Source: Sulfuricaulis sp. (GTDB taxonomy: Bacteria > Pseudomonadota > Gammaproteobacteria > Acidiferrobacterales > Sulfurifustaceae). Taken from it: DNA of 64,000 nucleotides. Position 1 is the stretch's first letter, and every line of letters starts with the position of its first letter. The translations under genes and the position numbers were made by a program. The notes beneath the pieces were generated by a model that saw only the letters and a list, made by a program, of their open reading frames with translations, was not told where the DNA came from and searched no databases. This document shows positions 27,799 to 50,280 of the stretch, piece by piece. The stretch is taken from contig NZ_JANLGY010000011.1 of NCBI RefSeq assembly GCF_024653915.1, positions 62,001 through 126,000 on the forward strand, written 5' to 3'.

Positions 27799-27812
27799 TT
27801 GATTCAGGTCAA
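27799..27812 (+). promoter_or_regulatory. FNR-type box upstream of DsrC-family gene
   Basis: TTGATTCAGGTCAA matches TTGAT-N4-ATCAA at nine of ten positions. A perfect TATAAT lies at 27842-27847, about 39 bases from the box centre, longer than for class II sites. TACTTA at 27835-27840 would give the usual spacing. Confidence 0.6.
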
Positions 27813-27899
27813 GTGCATTCCAAACCATACGGGCTACTTAGTATAATGAAAGCCTTGTGTCCGAGGCTTGATGCCGTGACCGGTCAAGAGGAGATCATG

Positions 27900-28265
27900 A
27901 TGAAAGGTACTGTTCCCACAGCCTTTATTCGCAAACTCGATGTCGGCGGAAAGGAAGTGCTCACGGATTCCGAGGGCTATATCCTTAACCTGGAAGAATG
28001 GTCGGAGGACTTCGCGAATGCATTGGCAGCCCAGGAGCAGTTGCAGCTCACCGATGAGCACTGGGAGATCATCCGGTTTCTGCGCGAGTTTTTCGTCGAG
28101 CATGGCGTGCAAGCCAACGTGCGTGAGATGATCAAGCACTTTCGCATGAAGTGGGATCCCGAAAAGGGCAGCAACCGCTATCTCCATGAGATCTTTCCGC
28201 GTGGCGGTCCGCAGAAGCAGGGCAACCGTCTCGCCGGCTTGTTGCGCACCAAGGGCGAGCATTGA
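27900..28265 (+). CDS. Cysteine-less DsrC/TusE-family protein (RspA type)
   Basis: A protein of 121 residues with the DsrC fold (EWSEDFANALA, HWEIIRFLREFFVEHG, YLHEIFPRGGP). DsrC has two conserved C-terminal Cys and TusE one. This protein has none, ending RTKGEH, and so cannot carry sulfur on the DsrC arm. Cys-less members have been termed RspA and are thought to be regulatory. ATG 27900 is preferred to ATG 27897 because AGGAG lies six bases upstream. It is 30 bases before the cytochrome gene, in one operon under an FNR-type box. Confidence 0.82.
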   Translation: MKGTVPTAFIRKLDVGGKEVLTDSEGYILNLEEWSEDFANALAAQEQLQLTDEHWEIIRFLREFFVEHGVQANVREMIKHFRMKWDPEKGSNRYLHEIFPRGGPQKQGNRLAGLLRTKGEH

Positions 28266-28295
28266 TTGAAACAAGTCCAAGTTAAGGGGAATATT

Positions 28296-28784
28296 ATGTC
28301 GGCGACTAAAAATACCGTGGTGTATCGGGTGATCATCGGATTGTTGCTGCTCACTATTGTCGGTCTGGTCCTGAAGTTTGTAGTGCTGGGCAGGACCGGG
28401 ACCGAGGTGGATGGCAGGGTGACGATACTGCTCGATCCGTCCGAGCGCGTCGTGGTGCTGAACGAGATGCGCCAATTCCTCGTCGGCATCCAGCAGATGC
28501 TGGAGGCAGCAGAACGCAAAGACGCTGCCGCCATCGTGAAGATTACGCGTCCGCTCGGCATGGCGGCGGCACACGCGGTCCCGCCCGGATTGGCGGCAAA
28601 ATTGCCGCTGGAGTTCAAGACGCTGGGACACAGCGTGCACAACGACTTCGACCGCATCGCCATGGATGCTGAGGCCATGAATGATGTGCAGCTATCGCTG
28701 CGACAGCTCGGACAGACCATGAATAAATGTGTGGCGTGCCATGCCACGTACCAGATCGCACTCCCGCCCGGGCCCCGCCAGTAA
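28296..28784 (+). CDS. Membrane-anchored cytochrome c'-like protein
   Basis: A protein of 162 residues with one N-terminal membrane helix (about residues 10-31), then a mainly helical domain. A single CVACH haem motif lies near the C-terminus, followed by ATYQI. The C-terminal haem in a helical bundle is the cytochrome c' or c-556 layout. Such proteins bind NO or transfer electrons. The ATG at 28296 is preceded by AAGGGGAA. It is co-transcribed with the Cys-less DsrC-family gene. Confidence 0.7.
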   Translation: MSATKNTVVYRVIIGLLLLTIVGLVLKFVVLGRTGTEVDGRVTILLDPSERVVVLNEMRQFLVGIQQMLEAAERKDAAAIVKITRPLGMAAAHAVPPGLAAKLPLEFKTLGHSVHNDFDRIAMDAEAMNDVQLSLRQLGQTMNKCVACHATYQIALPPGPRQ

Positions 28785-28842: not shown

Positions 28843-28856
28843 TTGACCTGCATCAA
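28843..28856 (+). promoter_or_regulatory. FNR-type box upstream of radical SAM-ubiUV operon
   Basis: TTGACCTGCATCAA matches TTGAT-N4-ATCAA at nine of ten positions. The -10 hexamer TAAAAT at 28879-28884 lies 32 bases from the box centre and sits in the same TAAAATTCCGG context as the first nirS promoter. Transcription would start near 28891. Confidence 0.75.
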
Positions 28857-28909
28857 GCGCGCATGCCGATGATGTGCCTAAAATTCCGGATTCTCGGAGG
28901 TCCAGCGCA

Positions 28910-29545
28910 ATGGCTGAAACAAGGGAAACGGCGAGGCTGGCCGGCCCAGAGCAAACTGTCGGTTATACCCTGCACGGCAACCGGTATCTCAACATTACCA
29001 ACCGCTGTTCGTTGCGCTGTGCATTCTGCCCGAAATTCAACGACGAATGGACGGTGCAGGAATACCAACTGCGACTCGATCATGATCCTGCGCTCGAGGA
29101 AATCGTCGCGGCGGCGGGCAATCCGGAGGATTATCAGGAGATCGTGTTCTGCGGTCTGGGAGAACCCACTCTACGGCTGTATACGCTGCTGGATGTGGCG
29201 ACCCGCATACGGCATCGCGTCAAACGGATACGCATCAACACCGACGGGCTCGCCAGTTTTGTTTACGGGCGTGATGTGACGCCCGATATGGAAGGCCTGA
29301 TCGATGCGCTGTCGGTATCGCTGAATGCCCAGAACGCGGATATCTATAACCGGCATTGTCGTCCGAAACTGCCGGGCTCTTACGGGGCGATGCTGGATTT
29401 TGTGAGGCGTGCGCGCGAATTTATCCCGGACGTTACCCTGACCGCTATCGATGGACTCTCCGGCGTTGATATTTCGGCGTGTGAAAAGATCGCGCATGAC
29501 CTTGGAGTAAAATTCCGGCATCGCGTGCTGGACGTTGTCGGCTGA
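28910..29545 (+). CDS. Radical SAM protein, TatD-linked family
   Basis: A protein of 211 residues. ATG 28910 was chosen because GGAGG lies nine bases upstream. The SAM cluster motif is CSLRCAFC, followed by VFCGLGEPTLRL (the GGEP-like segment), INTDG and SVSLNAQNADIYNRHCRP. This pattern matches the small radical SAM proteins often found beside tatD. The reaction is unknown, and no tatD lies here. It is instead the first gene of the ubiU-ubiV operon, which points to a role in anaerobic quinone synthesis or a linked cofactor. Confidence 0.78.
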   Translation: MAETRETARLAGPEQTVGYTLHGNRYLNITNRCSLRCAFCPKFNDEWTVQEYQLRLDHDPALEEIVAAAGNPEDYQEIVFCGLGEPTLRLYTLLDVATRIRHRVKRIRINTDGLASFVYGRDVTPDMEGLIDALSVSLNAQNADIYNRHCRPKLPGSYGAMLDFVRRAREFIPDVTLTAIDGLSGVDISACEKIAHDLGVKFRHRVLDVVG

Positions 29546-29575
29546 TTTATTCGCGCCATGCCCCCCACGGGAAAA

Positions 29576-30631
29576 ATGGAACTCGTCTGCCCGGCAGGCA
29601 GCATGCCGGCGCTGAAGGCGGCGGTGGACAATGGCGCCAATGCCGTTTACCTCGGCTTTCGTGACGGCACCAACGCGCGCAATTTCCCCGGCCTCAATTT
29701 CGATCTGGATGAAGCACGCCGGGCTGTGCATTACGCGCATGAGCGCGGCGCGCGTGTATTCCTGGCAATCAACACCTATCCACGCCCATCGCAGTGGCAG
29801 AAGTGGTGCCGCGCTGTGGATCAGGCGGCCACCCTCGGCATCGATGCCCTGATTCTCGCTGACCCCGGGCTCATGGATTACACCGTACAGACTTATCCCG
29901 ATCTGCGCCTGCATCTTTCGGTGCAGGGTTCGGCCACCAGCCACGAGGCGATTGATTTTTACGTGCGGCATTTCGGCGTCCGGCGTGTAGTGTTGCCGCG
30001 GGTGTTGTCGCTCACGCAGGTGCAGAATGTCATGAAGCGCGTGAACACGGAGGTGGAGGTATTCGGCTTTGGCAGTTTGTGCGTCATGGTCGAGGGCCGT
30101 TGCACGCTGTCTTCCTACGTGACCGGCGAATCACCGAATTCGAACGGGGTGTGTTCTCCTGCGAAACACGTGAAATGGGAGGAATCGGCCAGCGGCCGGC
30201 GCTCGCGCCTGAATGGCGTATTAATTGACACCTATGCGCCGGACGAGCCCGCGGGCTACCCGACGATTTGTAAAGGCCGCTTTGCTGTACAGGGATGTAC
30301 GAATGCCGCGGGCGCAGGACGCGCAGGACGCGCAGGAGCGGCCGAGGTCGGCGGTAAGGTTTACTACGCCATGGAGGAACCGACCAGCCTCAACGTGCTC
30401 GACATTCTTCCGGAGCTGTATCGCGCTGGAGTGGCGGCGATCAAGGTTGAGGGTCGGCAGCGCAGCCCGGCCTACGTGGCGCAGGTTACGCGCACCCTGC
30501 GCGAAGCCATCGATGCCTGTATCAGTGATCCGGAGACATTTGTACCCGAAGTCGAATGGGTGAAGCAGCTTGACAACGTCGCCGAAGGACGCTGCCACAC
30601 GCTCGGTGCGTATTCCCGGCCATGGCAATGA
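29576..30631 (+). CDS. ubiU: UbiU, O2-independent ubiquinone hydroxylation protein
   Basis: A U32-family protein with a [4Fe-4S] cluster. With UbiV it hydroxylates ubiquinone precursors without O2, using prephenate. It aligns with E. coli UbiU from MELVCPAGSMPALK to the end (LGAYSRPWQ). The four cluster Cys are present in FGSLCVMVEGRC, GVCSPAKHV and TICKGRF. Relative to E. coli there is a 20-codon in-frame insertion (30296-30355) just after the last cluster Cys region, containing CTNAAGAGRAGRAGAAE. ATG 29576 matches the family start; ATG 29558 is an alternative. It overlaps ubiV. Confidence 0.93.
   Translation: MELVCPAGSMPALKAAVDNGANAVYLGFRDGTNARNFPGLNFDLDEARRAVHYAHERGARVFLAINTYPRPSQWQKWCRAVDQAATLGIDALILADPGLMDYTVQTYPDLRLHLSVQGSATSHEAIDFYVRHFGVRRVVLPRVLSLTQVQNVMKRVNTEVEVFGFGSLCVMVEGRCTLSSYVTGESPNSNGVCSPAKHVKWEESASGRRSRLNGVLIDTYAPDEPAGYPTICKGRFAVQGCTNAAGAGRAGRAGAAEVGGKVYYAMEEPTSLNVLDILPELYRAGVAAIKVEGRQRSPAYVAQVTRTLREAIDACISDPETFVPEVEWVKQLDNVAEGRCHTLGAYSRPWQ
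30296..30355 (+). repeat. Palindromic coding element inserted in ubiU
   Basis: A 60-base in-frame insertion relative to E. coli UbiU. It contains TGCCGCGGGCGCAGG (30304-30318), identical to a segment inserted in hemN at 35406-35420 and read in the same frame (AAGAG). Nested short stems of the type GCGC-AGGAC-GCGC and outer GCCGC/GCGGC are visible. Confidence 0.75.
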
Positions 30632-31518
30632 AAATTTCCCTCGGTCCGATTCCATACCTCTGGGAACGCAGCCGCGTTTTTGATTTCTATGCGCGCGCTG
30701 CCGAGGCACCGGTCGATATTGTCTATCTGGGAGAGACGGTTTGCTCTAAACGCCGCGCCATGCGTTTGCCGGACTGGCTCGATATCGCCGCGCGTCTGAC
30801 CGCCGCGGGCAAAGAAGCGGTGCTGTCAACGCTTACGCTGATCGAGGCCGAATCGGAAGCTTCCTACCTGCGCACCATCATTGAAAACGGCCGGTATACA
30901 GTCGAGGCCAACGACATGGCGGCGATCAACATGCTGGCAGGTGTCGCGCCGTTTATTGTCGGCCCGCATGTCAATGTCTATAACAGTCGCGCCCTTGAGC
31001 TGATGGCGCGTATTGGCGCCCGGCGCTGGGTGATGCCAATGGAGCTCGACCGCGAAACACTGGCCGCGCTTCAGTCCAGCCGTTCCGCCAACCTGGAAAC
31101 CGAGGTGTTCGTATTCGGGCGTCTGCCGCTGTCCTTCTCGGCGCGCTGTTTCACCGCCCGCGCGCATAACCTCCCCAAGGATGAGTGCGGTTTCCGTTGC
31201 GCGGATTACCCTGAGGGCATGCCGATGCAAACACGCGAGGGCCAGTCATTTCTGAATCTCAACGGTATCCAGGTTCAGTCCGGAGAGACTTACAACCTGG
31301 TAAACGAAATCGGAGAGCTGCGAGCGCTCAAAGTGGATATTTTGCGGCTTTCTCCCCAGCCCGAAGGGATGTTCGAAATCATCGATGCTTTCCGTCACGT
31401 CATGGACGGGCAACTGGAATCGTCTGCCGCGGCCGGTAGTATCGCGCCACATCAAACAGCTGGATTTTGCGATGGCTACTGGCATGGCGCACCAGGCATG
31501 CACCGGGTGCACGTATGA
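30622..31518 (+). CDS. ubiV: UbiV, O2-independent ubiquinone hydroxylation protein
   Basis: The U32-family partner of UbiU, 298 residues, also with a [4Fe-4S] cluster. The N-terminus MKISLGPIPYLWERSRV and the cluster region (TVCSKRR; SARCFTARAHNLPKDECGFRC) match UbiV. The C-terminal tail (about residues 262-298) is longer than I expect. It overlaps ubiU by ten bases and the LplA-DUF116 gene by ATGA, so the three are translationally coupled. Confidence 0.93.
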   Translation: MAMKISLGPIPYLWERSRVFDFYARAAEAPVDIVYLGETVCSKRRAMRLPDWLDIAARLTAAGKEAVLSTLTLIEAESEASYLRTIIENGRYTVEANDMAAINMLAGVAPFIVGPHVNVYNSRALELMARIGARRWVMPMELDRETLAALQSSRSANLETEVFVFGRLPLSFSARCFTARAHNLPKDECGFRCADYPEGMPMQTREGQSFLNLNGIQVQSGETYNLVNEIGELRALKVDILRLSPQPEGMFEIIDAFRHVMDGQLESSAAAGSIAPHQTAGFCDGYWHGAPGMHRVHV

Positions 31519-33080
31519 CTACACGCACCGGCTTTGTAATCGATACCGGACTGCATTCCGGCCCGGAAAATATCCGGCTCGACAGCGCCCAATGGCGTGA
31601 GGCGCAAGAGGCGGATGCGCCCATTTGCCACGTACGATTCCATCGTTATCGTCCCACTGTCTCGCTGGGCGCCTTTGAAACGGCGGGCCATGCCTTGCGC
31701 GCGGAGTATTGCCGCGATCAGGGGATCGACATGGTGCAGCGCGTGAGTGGCGGCGCGGCGGTTTATCTCGACCCCGATCAATTGTGCTGGACGCTGACGC
31801 TTTCCCGTCCGAGCGCCTGGGGCAAGAAAAATATCATGGAATGGCTCGCACTGTTAGGCGGGGGAGTGGTGAAGGGGCTGCAAGGATTGGGCGTGAATGC
31901 CATATTCGCGCCGCCCAACGACATCGAACTGGCGGGGCGCAAGCTGGCTTCGGGCTTTATCGCGCTCTCGGATTCGGCGCTGCTGTTTCAGGGCAGCCTG
32001 CTGCTGGATCATGACACCGAAACCATGATGACGGCGCTGCGCGTGCCAACGGAAAAACTCACACCGGATGGTGTCCGTAGCGCACGCGGTCGTTTTACCA
32101 CGTTGCGGGACGAGGGCGTTGCCGCTGAGCCGGCTGTTCTGGAATGGCATGTCCTTACTGGTTGGGCTGAATTGCTTGACGTGGAATTTGGCAAGAGAGT
32201 GGAATTGAAGTCAGAGGAAATTACCGGTGACGCGAACCATGCGCCACCCGCCGGTAACTGGGATGCCGAACTTAATTTCTGGTATCAGGCCCTGGTAAAA
32301 ACGCCGGGCGGTGTCCTGTATGTCCGTGTGCGTCTTAGCGAAAGCGGCGATACTCTGCAGCAGGTTGAATTCGCCGGTGGCATGCAATTGTATCCCGCGT
32401 ATTTGTTTATCTCGCTTTCATCCTGGCTCGCCAGGACGCCGGTGGCGTGGCTGGATGAGCGCCTCGATGAATTCTTTCGTGTCTATCCGCATGACCTGGC
32501 TGGGTTTACCACCGAGGACATTCAGCACGGCCTGCGCCTCGCACTCGATCGCTATGCCCAGCAGGCGCAGTTTGCATTGACTCATGAGCAGGCCAATACG
32601 CTCATGGTGCATGCGCCATCGCCACTGGCGGCAGCGGATGTTGCTCGCGCGGCCAGCGTCATGCTGGTGCCGTACTGCGCCAAGCCATCCTGGTGCAAGT
32701 GGCGCCACCGCGACGGTTGTCCCGATTGCGGGATGTGCGAAGTAGGCGAGGCATATCGTCTGGCACGCGAGCGCGGCATGCGCGTCGTGACGATCACCAA
32801 TTTTGAACATTTGCAGCAGACACTCGGCGAGCTGCGCGCACAGGACACACCGGCCTATGTCGGCATGTGCTGCCGCCATTTCTACCTGAAACGCGAATAT
32901 GCTTTTCGTGAGGCCGGCATTCCTGCCGTGCTGATGGATATCACCGGTTCGAACTGTTACGAGCTGCAACAGGAGGATCTGGCCTACGCGGGGAAATTCC
33001 AGGCGCAGGCGCGCCTTGATCTGGATGTGTTGCGTAGGGTGATGAAACGTGTCCCTCCGGTGGCGGGAAAGGCGGATTAA
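31515..33080 (+). CDS. Lipoate-protein-ligase-like domain fused to DUF116
   Basis: A protein of 521 residues. The N-terminal half (about residues 1-250) is a BPL/LplA/LipB-type domain with QRVSGGAAVYLDPDQ and NDIELAGRKLASG, including the Lys expected to contact the acyl-adenylate. The middle (about 260-345) resembles an LplA accessory domain. The C-terminal part is DUF116, Cys-rich: PYCAKPSWCKW, DGCPDCGMCE, GMCCRHF and GSNCYEL, likely a metal or Fe-S site. Known LplA enzymes attach lipoate to carrier proteins; no carrier is nearby. The start overlaps the ubiV stop (ATGA), so a role in anaerobic ubiquinone synthesis is likely but unproven. Confidence 0.8.
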   Translation: MTTRTGFVIDTGLHSGPENIRLDSAQWREAQEADAPICHVRFHRYRPTVSLGAFETAGHALRAEYCRDQGIDMVQRVSGGAAVYLDPDQLCWTLTLSRPSAWGKKNIMEWLALLGGGVVKGLQGLGVNAIFAPPNDIELAGRKLASGFIALSDSALLFQGSLLLDHDTETMMTALRVPTEKLTPDGVRSARGRFTTLRDEGVAAEPAVLEWHVLTGWAELLDVEFGKRVELKSEEITGDANHAPPAGNWDAELNFWYQALVKTPGGVLYVRVRLSESGDTLQQVEFAGGMQLYPAYLFISLSSWLARTPVAWLDERLDEFFRVYPHDLAGFTTEDIQHGLRLALDRYAQQAQFALTHEQANTLMVHAPSPLAAADVARAASVMLVPYCAKPSWCKWRHRDGCPDCGMCEVGEAYRLARERGMRVVTITNFEHLQQTLGELRAQDTPAYVGMCCRHFYLKREYAFREAGIPAVLMDITGSNCYELQQEDLAYAGKFQAQARLDLDVLRRVMKRVPPVAGKAD

Positions 33081-33556
33081 CTCGCGGCCAGACGCTGGTC
33101 GATGGCGCGCTGGAAAACAGCGAATGCGGCTCCGCCCAGAGTTTCCCCCAGCACATCGCGGAAATGCGCCTCCCAGTCGTAGTCCAGCGCGTCCAGCAGG
33201 TTCTTCACATGCACGCCGGTTTCCGTGTCGCCTTCAATACACAGCCGGCGATTGAAGAAGAGCGTGTCGGGGTCCTCGCGCCGGGTCGCGAGTTGCCAGA
33301 AATCTTCCACTTTGCCGCTGATACGGACATCGGCAAGGCCCGCCGCGGCTGGCTGCAACCGTCCCTGGTCGATCCGGAAATGGATCTCGCTCGCCGCATC
33401 TCGAATATGTATACAAACGGATTTGCCGTTGATTTCCGGCAGGCGCGCCGCCAGTGGCTGGCCGCGCAGCAGGTGGTTGAATGCACGCGCGAACAGTTCC
33501 GCGTGCACGGCGTCGGGGATGATGCGCAGAGGCAGTAACAGTGGATGAGGCAGCAT
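33077..33556 (-). CDS. ubiT: UbiT, SCP2-domain ubiquinone biosynthesis accessory protein
   Basis: An SCP2 sterol-carrier-type protein of 159 residues that binds hydrophobic quinone intermediates in the anaerobic pathway, as E. coli UbiT does. SCP2 features include the GRLQPAAAGLADVRISG and DTLFFNRRLCIEGDTETG segments. It is convergent with the LplA-DUF116 gene, overlapping by four bases, and divergent from ubiD, with a shared FNR-type box between. Confidence 0.88.
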   Translation of the reverse strand: MLPHPLLLPLRIIPDAVHAELFARAFNHLLRGQPLAARLPEINGKSVCIHIRDAASEIHFRIDQGRLQPAAAGLADVRISGKVEDFWQLATRREDPDTLFFNRRLCIEGDTETGVHVKNLLDALDYDWEAHFRDVLGETLGGAAFAVFQRAIDQRLAAS

Positions 33557-33612: not shown

Positions 33613-33626
33613 TTGATCTGGGTCAA
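33613..33626. promoter_or_regulatory. FNR-type box between ubiT and ubiD
   Basis: TTGATCTGGGTCAA matches the consensus at nine of ten positions. A plus-strand -10 (TATTCT, 33649-33654) and a minus-strand -10 (TATAAA, complement of 33584-33589) lie on either side at about 32 bases, so one site could serve both genes. Confidence 0.65.
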
Positions 33627-33663: not shown

Positions 33664-35154
33664 ATGAAATTCAAAAATTTGCGCGAATTTATTGCGCATC
33701 TGGAAAAACTCGGCGAACTGCGGCGCATTACGGTCCCGGTAGACCCGCGACTGGAGATCACCGAAATATGCCAGCGCACCCTGCGCGTGCAGGGGCCGGC
33801 GCTGTTGTTTGAAAACCCGAAACAATCGGATATCCCGCTGCTGGGGAATCTTTTTGGCACCACGCGACGCGTGGCGCTAGCCATGGGACGCGAATCTATC
33901 GAAGACCTGCGCGAGGTTGGCAAGCTGCTTTCGTTTCTGAAGGAACCGCAGGTGCCACGCGGTCTCGGCGACGTCATCGAGAAGTTCCCGGAATTCAAGC
34001 AACTGTTGCACGTGGTACCGCGGGTGGTGAGCAACGCATCGTGCCGACAACATGTAATCGAAGGCAAGGACGTGGACTTGTCGATATTCCCCATACAGAC
34101 TTGCTGGCCGGAAGACGCCGGGCCCTTGATCACCTTCGGCTTGGTTGTTACCAAAGGTCCCTACAAGGAAAGACAGAACATCGGCATCTACCGTCAGCAG
34201 GTGATCGCGCGCAATAAAGTGATTATGCGCTGGCTGCCACACCGCGGCGGCGCGGTAGATTTTCGTGAGTGGAAGGAGGCTCATCCTGGAGATCTCTTTC
34301 CCGTCGTGGTTGCCATCGGGGCCGATCCGGCGACACTGCTGGCGGCGGTGACACCGATTCCCGATACACTGTCGGAATTCCAGTTCGCGGGACTATTGCG
34401 TGGGGCGCGCAGTGAGGTCGTCCCCTGCGGCTGTGCCACGCTGTACGTGCCGGCCTCGGCAGAAATAGTGCTCGAGGGCTATATCGACCCGGCAGAAGAA
34501 GCGCTGGAAGGACCGTTCGGCGATCACACCGGCTATTACAACTCGCAGGAAAAATTTCCCGTCTTCACTGTCGAGCGCATCACGCATCGCGACCAGCCCA
34601 TATATCACAGTGCCTACATGGGGCGTTCGCCGCACGATGAGCCCTCAGTATTGGCCATGGCGCTCAACGAGGTTTTCATTCCGTTGCTGCAGAAGCAGTT
34701 TCCGGAGATCGTGGATTTCTATCTGCCGCCGGAAGGCTGCTCCTACCGCGTAGCCTGCGTCAGCATTAAGAAACGTTATGCCGGTCACGCCCGACGCATC
34801 ATGTTCGGCGTGTGGTCTTACCTGCGCCAGTTCACCTACACCAAATTCGTGATCGTCACCGATGACGACATCAACGTGCGTGACTGGAAAGAAGTTGTTT
34901 GGGCCATGAGCACGCGCATGGATCCCGTGCGCGATACGCTGCTGATCGAGAACACCCCTATTGATTATCTGGATTTCGCCAGCCCGGTCTCGGGTCTCGG
35001 CGGTAAGATGGGTTTGGATGCCACCAACAAATGGCCGGCCGAAACGGCGCGTGCCTGGGGCCGGCCGATTTCCATGAGCGCCGAGGTGGTGCGCCGGGTC
35101 GACGACCTGTGGCACCAGCTGGGGATTGAGGGCATCGCGTCGCACCATCCTTGA
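33664..35154 (+). CDS. ubiD: UbiD, 4-hydroxy-3-polyprenylbenzoate decarboxylase
   Basis: A prenyl-FMN-dependent decarboxylase of 496 residues in ubiquinone synthesis. Start ATG 33664 ([19 protein letters not shown]) matches family N-termini; the open frame upstream does not. Conserved segments include [11 protein letters not shown]-type region [24 protein letters not shown] and the E-rich catalytic region. No ubiX (prenyl-FMN synthase) is in the window. The leader from the FNR-type promoter is very short. Confidence 0.94.
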
Positions 35155-35259: not shown

Positions 35260-36732
35260 ATGATCATATTTATCGACTTCTCCAAAACGAGCTTGAATCA
35301 CCAGATCATTTTTGACGCCGAACTGCTGCGCCGCTACGACAAAAGCGGACCGCGCTACACGTCGTATCCGACGGCCGTGCAGTTCCGAAGTGCAGGAAGC
35401 ACAAGTGCCGCGGGCGCAGGGATGCGCGAGAGCGGCCACACAGGCTTCACCGAGGCGGATTACCAGGACCAGGCCAAACGGAGCAATGCTTCGGCCGCGC
35501 CGCGCCCGCTGTCGCTGTACTTTCATTTGCCTTTTTGCGACACCGTCTGTTTTTACTGCGCGTGCAACAAGGTTGTCACCAAGGACCGCAAGCGCGCCTC
35601 ACCGTATCTGGGTCGGCTGCATCGCGAGATCGCCCTGCAGGCGCAACTGTTTCATCGATCACGCACGGTGGAGCAGTTGCACTGGGGCGGCGGCACGCCG
35701 ACGTTCATCAGTCACGAGGAAATGCGGGAGCTGATGGAGGTCACGCGCGAGCATTTCCGCCTGCGTGATGACGACAAGGGCGAATACGGCATCGAGGTGG
35801 ACCCGCGCGAGGTGCGGCCGGAGACGCTGGCTGTGTTGCGCAGCCTCGGCTTCAATCGCTTGAGCATGGGCGTGCAGGATTTTGAGCCCGCGGTGCAGAA
35901 GGCGGTGAATCGCATCCAGACCGAGGCCGAGACCTTCGCGGTGCTCAAGGAGGCGCGCGCGCTCGGTTTCCGTTCCATTAACATGGACCTGATTTACGGT
36001 CTGCCGCACCAAACTGTTGAAAGCTTTGGACGCACGCTGGAAAAAATTATCACCGCTGGCCCGGACCGGCTCTCGGTATTCAATTACGCGCACCTGCCGG
36101 AGATGTTCAAACCGCAGCGCCGCATCTCCACCTCCGATCTGCCGAGTCCGCAGGAGAAGCTTAATATCCTTCAGCTCACCATCGAGCGCCTGACGCAGGC
36201 GGGCTACGTGTACATCGGCATGGATCATTTCGCGCGACCGGACGACGAATTGGCAGCGGCGCAGCGCAACGGCACGCTGTACCGGAATTTCCAGGGGTAC
36301 TCCACGCATGCGGAGTGCGACATGATCGGCATGGGAATTACAGCGATTGGCATGGTGGGCGATTGTTACAGCCAGAACCAGAAAACGCTGGAAGATTACT
36401 ACGCGGTACTCGATTCAGGCCATCTGCCGGTGATGCGCGGTATTGTGCTGGATGATGACGACAAGCTGCGGCGAGAGATCATTACGCAGTTGATATGCCA
36501 TTTCATGCTCGACTTGAATGCCGTCGAGCGCGTACGCGGCATCCGTTTTGCCGACTACTTTGCCGCGGAACTCGCTGATCTCAAGGTCATGCAGCAGGAC
36601 GGGTTGGTTGAGGTGGACGCGAAGTCAATGCGCGTGCAGCCCGCGGGCAAGCTGCTCATTCGCAATATCTGCATGGTTTTCGACCGTTACCTGCGCGAGA
36701 AACAGGAACAGCGCTATTCAAAGGTGATCTGA
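35260..36732 (+). CDS. hemN: O2-independent coproporphyrinogen III dehydrogenase
   Basis: A radical SAM haem-synthesis enzyme of 490 residues. The cluster motif CDTVCFYC has Cys at 93, 97 and 100, followed by GGGTP and GLPHQT. N-terminal YDKSGPRYTSYPTAVQF is the HemN signature. An 18-codon insertion (35386-35439, residues 43-60) relative to homologues interrupts VQF and GFTEADY. It carries the same AAGAG-coding element as ubiU. A TTG at 35293 (reading NHQIIFDAELLRRYD) is a likelier biological start by homology and by the possible promoter position. No clear ribosome site decides. Confidence 0.93.
   Translation: MIIFIDFSKTSLNHQIIFDAELLRRYDKSGPRYTSYPTAVQFRSAGSTSAAGAGMRESGHTGFTEADYQDQAKRSNASAAPRPLSLYFHLPFCDTVCFYCACNKVVTKDRKRASPYLGRLHREIALQAQLFHRSRTVEQLHWGGGTPTFISHEEMRELMEVTREHFRLRDDDKGEYGIEVDPREVRPETLAVLRSLGFNRLSMGVQDFEPAVQKAVNRIQTEAETFAVLKEARALGFRSINMDLIYGLPHQTVESFGRTLEKIITAGPDRLSVFNYAHLPEMFKPQRRISTSDLPSPQEKLNILQLTIERLTQAGYVYIGMDHFARPDDELAAAQRNGTLYRNFQGYSTHAECDMIGMGITAIGMVGDCYSQNQKTLEDYYAVLDSGHLPVMRGIVLDDDDKLRREIITQLICHFMLDLNAVERVRGIRFADYFAAELADLKVMQQDGLVEVDAKSMRVQPAGKLLIRNICMVFDRYLREKQEQRYSKVI
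35386..35439 (+). repeat. Palindromic coding element inserted in hemN
   Basis: A 54-base in-frame insertion. TGCCGCGGGCGCAGG (35406-35420) is identical to ubiU 30304-30318. Nested stems are visible: GTGC-AGGAA-GCAC, GCGC-AGGGAT-GCGC and an outer GCCGC/GCGGC pair. Confidence 0.75.
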
Positions 36733-37539: not shown

Positions 37540-38304
37540 GTGCAAAAACGAGAAGCTGCGGCGGTCATCAATATCTCCAGCATCAAGGCAGCTTGCAAGG
37601 ATTGCACGCTCCAGGAATTATGTCTGCCGCTCGGGCTCAATGATGTCGACATTGCTGCTCTTGACAAGGCTGTCAAGCGCCGGCGCACGCTGAAAAAAGG
37701 AGAAATGCTTTATCGTTTTGGCGACCCCCTGCGCTCGCTGTACGCGATCCGCAACGGCGCGCTTAAGACCACCGGCCTGATCGAGGACGGTCGCGCCCAG
37801 GTGACCGGTTTTTATCTCCCGGGCGAGTTGCTCGGTATCGACGCCATCAGCACCGACAAGCATCCGTGCAGCGCCGAGGCGCTTGAAACCTCGGAGGTCT
37901 GTGATATTCCCTACCCGGCGCTGGAGGACTTGGCGACCAAGATCCCCGGCCTGCAGCATCAGCTGTTGCGCATCATGAGCCGCGAGATCGTACGCGACGA
38001 GGAGATGCTGATGATGCTGGGGCGCATGACCGCCGAGGAACGTCTGGCCTCTTGTCTGATGAGTTTCTCGCGTCGCTTGGCACGGCTCGGTGGACTGCCC
38101 ACTGAATTCAAGCTCAGCATGTCGCGCCAGGATCTGGGCGACTACCTCGGGCTTGCGCTCGAGACGGTGAGTCGCCTGCTGTCGCGCTTTCATGACGAAG
38201 GCCTGATTAACGTTCATGGCCGGCAGATTACCCTGCGCGACTTGAACCGCCTGCGCAACATGGCCGCCGGCAACGGTCGCGAGCACAACGTCTCGGCCCA
38301 ATAA
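37540..38304 (+). CDS. fnr: FNR/Anr-type oxygen-sensing transcriptional regulator
   Basis: A CRP-family regulator of 254 residues with a [4Fe-4S] oxygen sensor. Cluster ligands are Cys19, Cys22 and Cys28 (CKDCTLQELC) and Cys110 (KHPC). The recognition helix reads ETVSRLLSRF, with the Glu, Ser and Arg that contact TTGAT half sites in E. coli FNR. It is the natural candidate for the FNR-type boxes elsewhere in this window. The start is GTG. A half site (TTGAT) upstream near 37464 might be autoregulatory. Confidence 0.95.
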   Translation: MQKREAAAVINISSIKAACKDCTLQELCLPLGLNDVDIAALDKAVKRRRTLKKGEMLYRFGDPLRSLYAIRNGALKTTGLIEDGRAQVTGFYLPGELLGIDAISTDKHPCSAEALETSEVCDIPYPALEDLATKIPGLQHQLLRIMSREIVRDEEMLMMLGRMTAEERLASCLMSFSRRLARLGGLPTEFKLSMSRQDLGDYLGLALETVSRLLSRFHDEGLINVHGRQITLRDLNRLRNMAAGNGREHNVSAQ

Positions 38305-50266: not shown

Positions 50267-50280
50267 TTGATCCAAATCAA
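50267..50280 (-). promoter_or_regulatory. FNR-type box upstream of hppA
   Basis: TTGATCCAAATCAA is a perfect FNR-family site, reading TTGATTTGGATCAA on the minus strand. Its centre is about 100 bases from the hppA ATG. A good -10 at the expected position (around 50243) is not evident. A separate palindrome AACTGA-T-TCAGTT lies at 50243-50255. Confidence 0.7.

Follow-up and report, generated by a model that had tools for sequence, protein, structure and literature searches.

The locus analyzed here raises the question of why a lipoate-ligase-like protein should be encoded in an operon for oxygen-independent ubiquinone synthesis. In a stretch of 64,000 nucleotides (nt) from Sulfuricaulis sp. 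(contig NZ_JANLGY010000011.1; hereafter the window), ubiU and ubiV are flanked upstream by a gene for a small radical S-adenosylmethionine protein (rSAM) and downstream by one for a fusion of LplA, LplB-like and DUF116 domains (hereafter the fusion; Table 1). A first-pass annotation had proposed the two flanking genes as a candidate anaerobic quinone module. We give about even chances to another reading, in which the fusion is an anaerobically expressed, probably iron-sulfur (Fe-S)-bearing relative of the ligase sLpl(AB) that serves lipoylation of LbpA and not ubiquinone chemistry; a role in a quinone module is possible, and less likely than one in lipoate and sulfur metabolism. The distribution of the fusion suggests that sulfur oxidisers able to make ubiquinone without oxygen often carry it in the same operon.

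Co-occurrence was counted in 274 evenly drawn genomes of the class Gammaproteobacteria (class draw; genomes are numbered G, with G000 the window's genome, loci L and contigs C). The class draw holds 11 full-length fusions in 10 genomes, all ten with UbiU; in eight genomes a copy lies directly behind ubiV (8/11 fusions), and fusions mostly away from ubiUV, the pattern that the first-pass annotation had named as speaking against its module, were not found. In a scan of GTDB contigs, 150 relatives of the fusion were obtained and the best 80 kept as loci, which, being the most similar of the 150, are biased toward the window's type, and which overlap with the class draw (L069 and G267, as well as L083 and G156, are apparently the same genomes). 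ubiU and/or ubiV were present in the fetched flank of 53 of the 80 loci; the fusion is there encoded downstream of them in the same direction, and in 47/53 the gap between the ubiV match and the fusion is <=200 nt. Among the hosts of these linked loci are Ectothiorhodospira, Acidithiobacillus, Sulfuricella and Thioalkalivibrio. An FNR-type box stands 1.9-5.2 kb before the fusion in 21 of the 49 linked loci examined (of 53), about 8 being estimated by chance, and boxes are similarly placed before the rSAM gene, for example in L052, L053, L056, L057, L070, L120, L123, L124 and L126. Because other families and orders also show ubiV followed by the fusion, the arrangement is not a product of chance. 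Among open-licence papers in PubMed Central (PMC), none describing it was found, and none joins UbiU and UbiV with DUF116, UbiUVT with radical SAM, or DUF116 with lipoate. An alphaproteobacterial draw (240 genomes) gave a full-length fusion match only in its centre genome, and hence no statistics.

Beyond ubiUV, the fusion is most strongly tied to LipS1, the lipoyl synthase of the LbpA lipoate pathway of sulfur oxidisers. LipS1 is found in 21/274 genomes of the class draw, namely in 8/10 fusion genomes vs 13/264 others (P=1.2e-8). Among the 74 UbiU genomes, the fusion is present in 8/10 with LipS1 and 2/64 without (P=1.3e-7), and among the 21 LipS1 genomes in 8/10 with UbiU and 0/11 without (P=2e-4); its presence follows the combination of LipS1 and UbiU, the association between these two being itself weak (P=0.04). 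The two fusion genomes with UbiU only, G122 and G237, have divergent copies that are not beside ubiUV. From the contig scan, 50 fusion-bearing genomes were tested (27 with unlinked fusions and 23 of the 53 linked); LipS1 was detected in 44, the six misses all being metagenome-assembled genome (MAG) records, and UbiU in 18 of the 27 with an unlinked fusion. The first-pass annotation had listed a lipoylated carrier as one of several possible targets of the flanking genes; this part is favoured, and the quinone module in which it was embedded is not supported, the fusion tracking the LipS1/S2-LbpA pathway.

Gene neighbourhoods were mapped with a simple open reading frame (ORF) picker, and names without a family call were assigned by eye. 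LipS1 and LipS2 lie within the 10-kb flanks in 5/80 loci (L108, L109, L115, L121, L122), accompanied by LbpA in L115 and L122. L121, a Chlorobiota MAG that gave no UbiU match, has its fusion behind TusA, DsrE and a gene joining LipS2 to LipS1, and no protein of this genome other than the fusion matched sLpl(AB) at E<=1e-10; the LipS2-LipS1 protein (L121:7939-9993) has 684 residues and scores just under or under the family cut-offs. Five loci of LplA-only relatives from the class draw were checked (L043, L044, L045, L046, L048), and all have LipS1-, LipS2- and LbpA-type genes adjoining the ligase. The fusion in the window adjoins ubiUV and is not beside lipS1, lipS2 or lbpA; the lip genes are on another contig, C28, with LbpA-, LipS1-, LipS2- and sLpl(AB)-type genes, where the LipS1 and GcvH-type models score under the NCBIfam cut-offs. 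This cluster (G000:C28; L043:6597-12263) comprises TusA-, LbpA-, LipS1-, sLpl(AB)-, LipT- and LipS2-like genes, an LbpA system apparently without sHdr. A GcvH/LbpA-like gene (L083:2735-3136; G156:C65:111004-111363) was also seen about 7 kb from a ubiUV-fusion operon. The queries for LipS1, LipS2, LbpA and sHdrB2 (from L049 and L043) were first named by eye; in a profile search the best family for the LipS1 query was LipS1, at a score under the family cut-off.

The fusion meets PF21948 (LplA/B catalytic family; 99.1 bits, cut-off 27) and PF01976 (DUF116; 31.9 bits, cut-off 25), with an LplB-like small domain between the two that matches NF053749. It misses the NCBIfam lipoate-protein ligase cut-offs (TIGR00545, 75 vs 280 bits; NF053749, 22.3 vs 65), as does the sLpl(AB)-type protein of the window's genome (153 and 48 bits, respectively). 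In an AlphaFold2 model (predicted local distance difference test, pLDDT, 92; predicted template modelling score 0.88), residues about 3-342 adopt the two-domain lipoate-ligase fold (Z 30.8, root-mean-square deviation 2.9 over 302 residues, to 5ij6). DUF116 alone is modelled as Rossmann-like (pLDDT 92.5); Foldseek gave no match for it at E<=0.001, and the best fold matches, a designed Rossmann protein (Z 8.4) and type II dehydroquinases (about 7), are too weak to name its fold family. It contains eight Cys (388, 394, 402, 405, 408, 452, 453, 481; 11 in the whole fusion protein), fewer than the at least nine claimed at first. Six of them (388, 394, 402, 408, 453, 481) are invariant in a motif table of 86 fusion rows, from which L083, L114, L116, L124 and L127 were left out for unclean ORFs; one of the 86 rows has Ser for C405, and G122 and G237 lack C452. 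The DUF116 part is probably Fe-S-bearing. On the ligase side, K143 occupies what we take to be the position of the catalytic Lys (K133 in E. coli), with Lys in 82/86 rows, and the second Arg and middle Gly of the RRxxGGG motif are present in 86/86. DUF116-like pieces separate from the ligase domain were noticed in two fusion-bearing genomes (L042:1570-1797, L120:13700-14065) and may be remnants.

The ligase activity, LbpA substrate, Fe-S clusters and DUF116 role that we infer would fit together as follows. The fusion would be a second lipoate-protein-ligase-type enzyme working with LipS1/LipS2-LbpA lipoate assembly, its LplA/LplB part activating octanoate or lipoate with ATP and transferring it to a Lys of LbpA or a related carrier; the DUF116 part would hold one or two Fe-S clusters and might act as a redox gate on the ligase, or supply electrons or sulfur to LipS1/S2. 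Its residence in the FNR-controlled ubiUV operon would be explained if the hosts, as we presume, exploit reduced sulfur under anoxia, where they also require ubiquinone. Such an enzyme may be a missing piece between oxygen-independent ubiquinone synthesis and LipS1/S2-LbpA assembly, both recently described; the reading places the uncharacterised domain DUF116 in a testable context, and by it the fusion should be carried by genomes with both systems. A bolder version, which we hold to be improbable, has the Fe-S DUF116 switch or power LbpA lipoate attachment and maturation only when oxygen is absent. If true, one FNR operon would set up both ubiquinone and lipoyl-LbpA for anaerobic sulfur oxidation, and DUF116 would be the partner domain tying lipoate assembly to anaerobic respiration, a link for which we know of no precedent.

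Several observations weigh against a ligase dedicated to LbpA. The fusion is near ubiUV in 53/80 loci vs near lipS1/S2 in 5/80, and near both in 0/80. G122 and G237, both 100% complete, have a fusion and no LipS1 match. A separate sLpl(AB)-type ligase is encoded in all 8 ubi-linked genomes of the class draw and in 14/14 Proteobacterial genomes tested, so that the fusion may do something else. Mean pairwise identity over 40 sequences is 61% for DUF116, 39% for LplA and 27% for LplB; the catalytic-Lys position holds Thr in G156 and in G267/L069 (one genome) and Arg in L102; and Proteobacterial fusions read PNDxExxGRKxAS where sLpl(AB) has RNDIEVxGRKISGTGG. The genomes of the class draw are related by descent, the 8 ubi-linked fusion genomes belonging to 6 families. 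Finally, the window's genome has no sHdrB2 match. More generally, a strong match (E of 7e-81 or less) was obtained in 11 of 17 fusion genomes tested and was absent from G000, G267, G294 and G296, which have LipS1, and from G122 and G237 (G267, G122 and G296 have only a relative at 30-33%), and sHdr as a required partner, in its simple form, was rejected. Because the window's genome has LbpA-, LipS1-, LipS2- and sLpl(AB)-type genes without sHdrB2, we tie the fusion to LbpA lipoylation, not strictly to sHdr.

These points leave room for readings in which the fusion is no LbpA ligase. It could be an accessory of UbiUV that builds or protects the UbiU/UbiV clusters, or that provides anaerobic hydroxylation with a cofactor or a route for electrons, as suggested by its tightly kept place behind ubiV in beta- and gammaproteobacteria and Acidithiobacillus records, by UbiU in all its class-draw hosts, and by the Cys-rich DUF116 as its best conserved part. 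We nevertheless find this unlikely: 64 of the 74 UbiU genomes have no fusion, the anaerobic pathway of E. coli is described as relying on UbiT, UbiU and UbiV (PMC6747719), a genome of the same genus (G082) has rSAM-ubiU-ubiV and no fusion, and 9 of the 27 genomes with unlinked fusions (several of them MAGs, and including two Aquificota records and one Chlorobiota) gave no UbiU match, to which the strong LipS1 link is added. The UbiU genomes without a fusion, the fusions in Aquificota and Chlorobiota records without a UbiU match, and the link to the LipS1/S2-LbpA pathway also tell against the first-pass idea that the rSAM and the fusion form a quinone module.

Alternatively, the LplA fold might only dock on a lipoyl carrier, with DUF116 doing electron or sulfur transfer. 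We regard this as doubtful, given the retention of the Lys in 82/86 rows and of the two RRxxGGG residues throughout; what speaks for it is that DUF116 is better conserved, that a few fusions have lost the Lys, and that linked genomes have an sLpl(AB)-type gene besides. Three distinct sequences lack the Lys and keep the DUF116 Cys intact, probably through two losses given that G156 and G267 share a genus, and DUF116 has been proposed as a flavodoxin-like electron-transfer domain (PMC5898192). Least probable of all, in our estimate, is the absence of any functional tie, the operon being an inherited anaerobic island of unrelated FNR-controlled genes (rSAM, fusion, ubiUVT, hemN, nrdD, moaA). HemN- and FNR-like genes do recur nearby, NrdD and MoaA adjoin the operon in L032 (NrdD elsewhere by eye), and FNR boxes and the lack of an rSAM-fusion association would fit; yet the fusion stays close behind ubiV across distant lineages while its other neighbours change, and its presence depends on LipS1.

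Returning to the LbpA-ligase reading, sLpl(AB), which is reported to lipoylate LbpA (PMC6067878, PMC10332631), is the nearest known system. It shares with the fusion the LplA catalytic and LplB small domains, the Lys at the same place, about 28-36% identity and, for the most part, the genomes in which they occur (those with LipS1/S2 and LbpA); the fusion differs in having DUF116, in lacking the RNDIEVxGRKISGTGG motif, in its separate tree branch, and in residing mostly in the ubiUV operon instead of a lip cluster. In the tree, rooted at the midpoint only, the window's fusion falls outside the sLpl(AB) clade and inside a Proteobacterial fusion set of 81 rows (98/99 support), which includes the misread canonical row L028; fusions from Aquificota, Chlorobiota and one archaeal MAG (L121, L125, L128, L129) group with sLpl(AB) at 93/70 only. 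L101 and L094 were additionally left out of the tree, and its canonical LplA rows L025, L028 and L031 are on very long branches, L028 and L031 looking like wrong frames. The Aquificota fusions (L125:916-3153, L129:8365-10581) carry an extra domain after DUF116, CO_dh (PF02552, the epsilon subunit of carbon monoxide dehydrogenase/acetyl-CoA synthase).

Archaeal DUF116 proteins (COG1852, arCOG02078), as described in PMC5898192, are likewise Cys-rich with CxxCxxC; a flavodoxin-like fold is proposed for them there, the DUF116 model of the fusion being Rossmann-like, and they have two N-terminal membrane helices whereas the DUF116 of the fusion is joined to a ligase. That source links DUF116 to sulfite/nitrite reductase genes, in most Methanomicrobia. 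With the UbiTUV pathway, the fusion and the rSAM share the operon and an upstream FNR-type box as in published loci, and neither is among the pathway proteins in the parts of those papers used here (PMC6747719, PMC11707229, PMC10470549); the fusion is present in 10 and the rSAM in 29 of the 74 UbiU genomes, neither occurring wherever ubiUV does. In Hyphomicrobium denitrificans, sulfur oxidation and ubiXDTUV are reported to be linked through regulation, strains without sHdrR or SoxR showing lowered ubiXDTUV transcripts (PMC12423496).

The rSAM follows UbiU on its own account: UbiU is present in 29/44 rSAM genomes vs 45/230 others (P=2.9e-9), and in 15 of the 29 genomes that carry both, about 6 kb or less separates the rSAM gene from ubiU, so that each flanking gene recurs beside ubiUV as initially supposed. 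Within the UbiU genomes, however, the fusion is found in 5/29 with and 5/45 without the rSAM (P=0.50), and the weak association over all 274 genomes (P=0.012) is expected if both follow UbiU. The functional pair envisaged in the first-pass annotation was accordingly rejected, each gene being linked to ubiUV separately, and the two have to be treated apart; the rSAM gene would belong to the anaerobic gene island in its own right and not as the partner of the fusion. Both single arrangements exist, rSAM-ubiU-ubiV without the fusion in G082, and ubiUV-fusion without an rSAM match within the fetched stretch in G156, G236, G267 and G147. The rSAM belongs to the TIGR04038 subfamily, which no open-licence PMC paper matched, and a PDB sequence search with it gave no match at E<=0.001. 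Away from ubiUV, TIGR04038 genes were seen near MoaA, again among anaerobic genes (L137:4252-7794, L138:4092-6959), in L137 also near a 4Fe-4S ferredoxin (family-tested; NapF-like by eye). A second radical SAM gene, TIGR01212 (MnmL/YtqA, tRNA modification), is absent from the window and lies directly upstream of ubiU in several lineages (6/6 tested: L146:5391-6323, L149:6136-7083, L070:7048-8004, L090:1124-2098, L116:7097-8065, L120:7088-8017).

In the window, the four genes stand on the + strand in the order given by the first-pass annotation, with the box ahead of them, and the ATGA in which the fusion start overlaps the ubiV stop is confirmed at 31515-31518. The rSAM gene has its preferred ATG preceded by GGAGG, and its CxxxCxxC motif comprises Cys33, Cys37 and Cys40; ubiV may alternatively start at 30628, which gives an ATGA overlap with ubiU. 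A single promoter presumably serves the whole operon. After ubiT follow the genes for UbiD, HemN, MscL and FNR.

Table 1. Positions of the operon and neighbouring features in the window.
Feature	Position	Strand	Basis or remark
FNR-type box TTGACCTGCATCAA	28843..28856	+	53 bp upstream of rSAM start
Radical SAM protein, TatD-associated subfamily, 211 aa	28910..29545	+	TIGR04038, 247.4 bits, cut-off 129.7
ubiU	29558..30631	+	NF047963, 537 bits, cut-off 440
ubiV	30622..31518	+	NF047965, 403 bits, cut-off 275
LplA-LplB-DUF116 fusion, 521 aa	31515..33080	+	PF21948 and PF01976; AlphaFold2 model
DUF116 stretch with eight conserved Cys (residues 388-481)	32676..32957	+	
ubiT, convergent	33077..33556	-	NF047962, 131 bits
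Second FNR-type box, between ubiT and UbiD gene	33613..33626	+	
UbiD-family decarboxylase	33664..35154	+	PF01977
HemN, oxygen-independent coproporphyrinogen oxidase	35260..36732	+	TIGR00538
FNR regulator	37540..38304	+	NF008365

Matches to TTGAYNNNNRTCAA number 6 in the window vs 0.30 expected, a count reached in 0/100 shuffles; further boxes lie at 934-947, 2958-2971 and 50267-50280. One more (27799-27812) stands upstream of a gene for a DsrC/TusE-family protein without any Cys (27870-28265), and DsrC-like genes precede the rSAM gene also in L052, L053, L056, L057 and L070. Between the DsrC-like gene and the operon, a small protein with a CVACH motif (CxxCH, haem-c-type) is encoded at 28266-28784; a Pfam search with it gave no match, and relatives were found in L050, L051 and L147.

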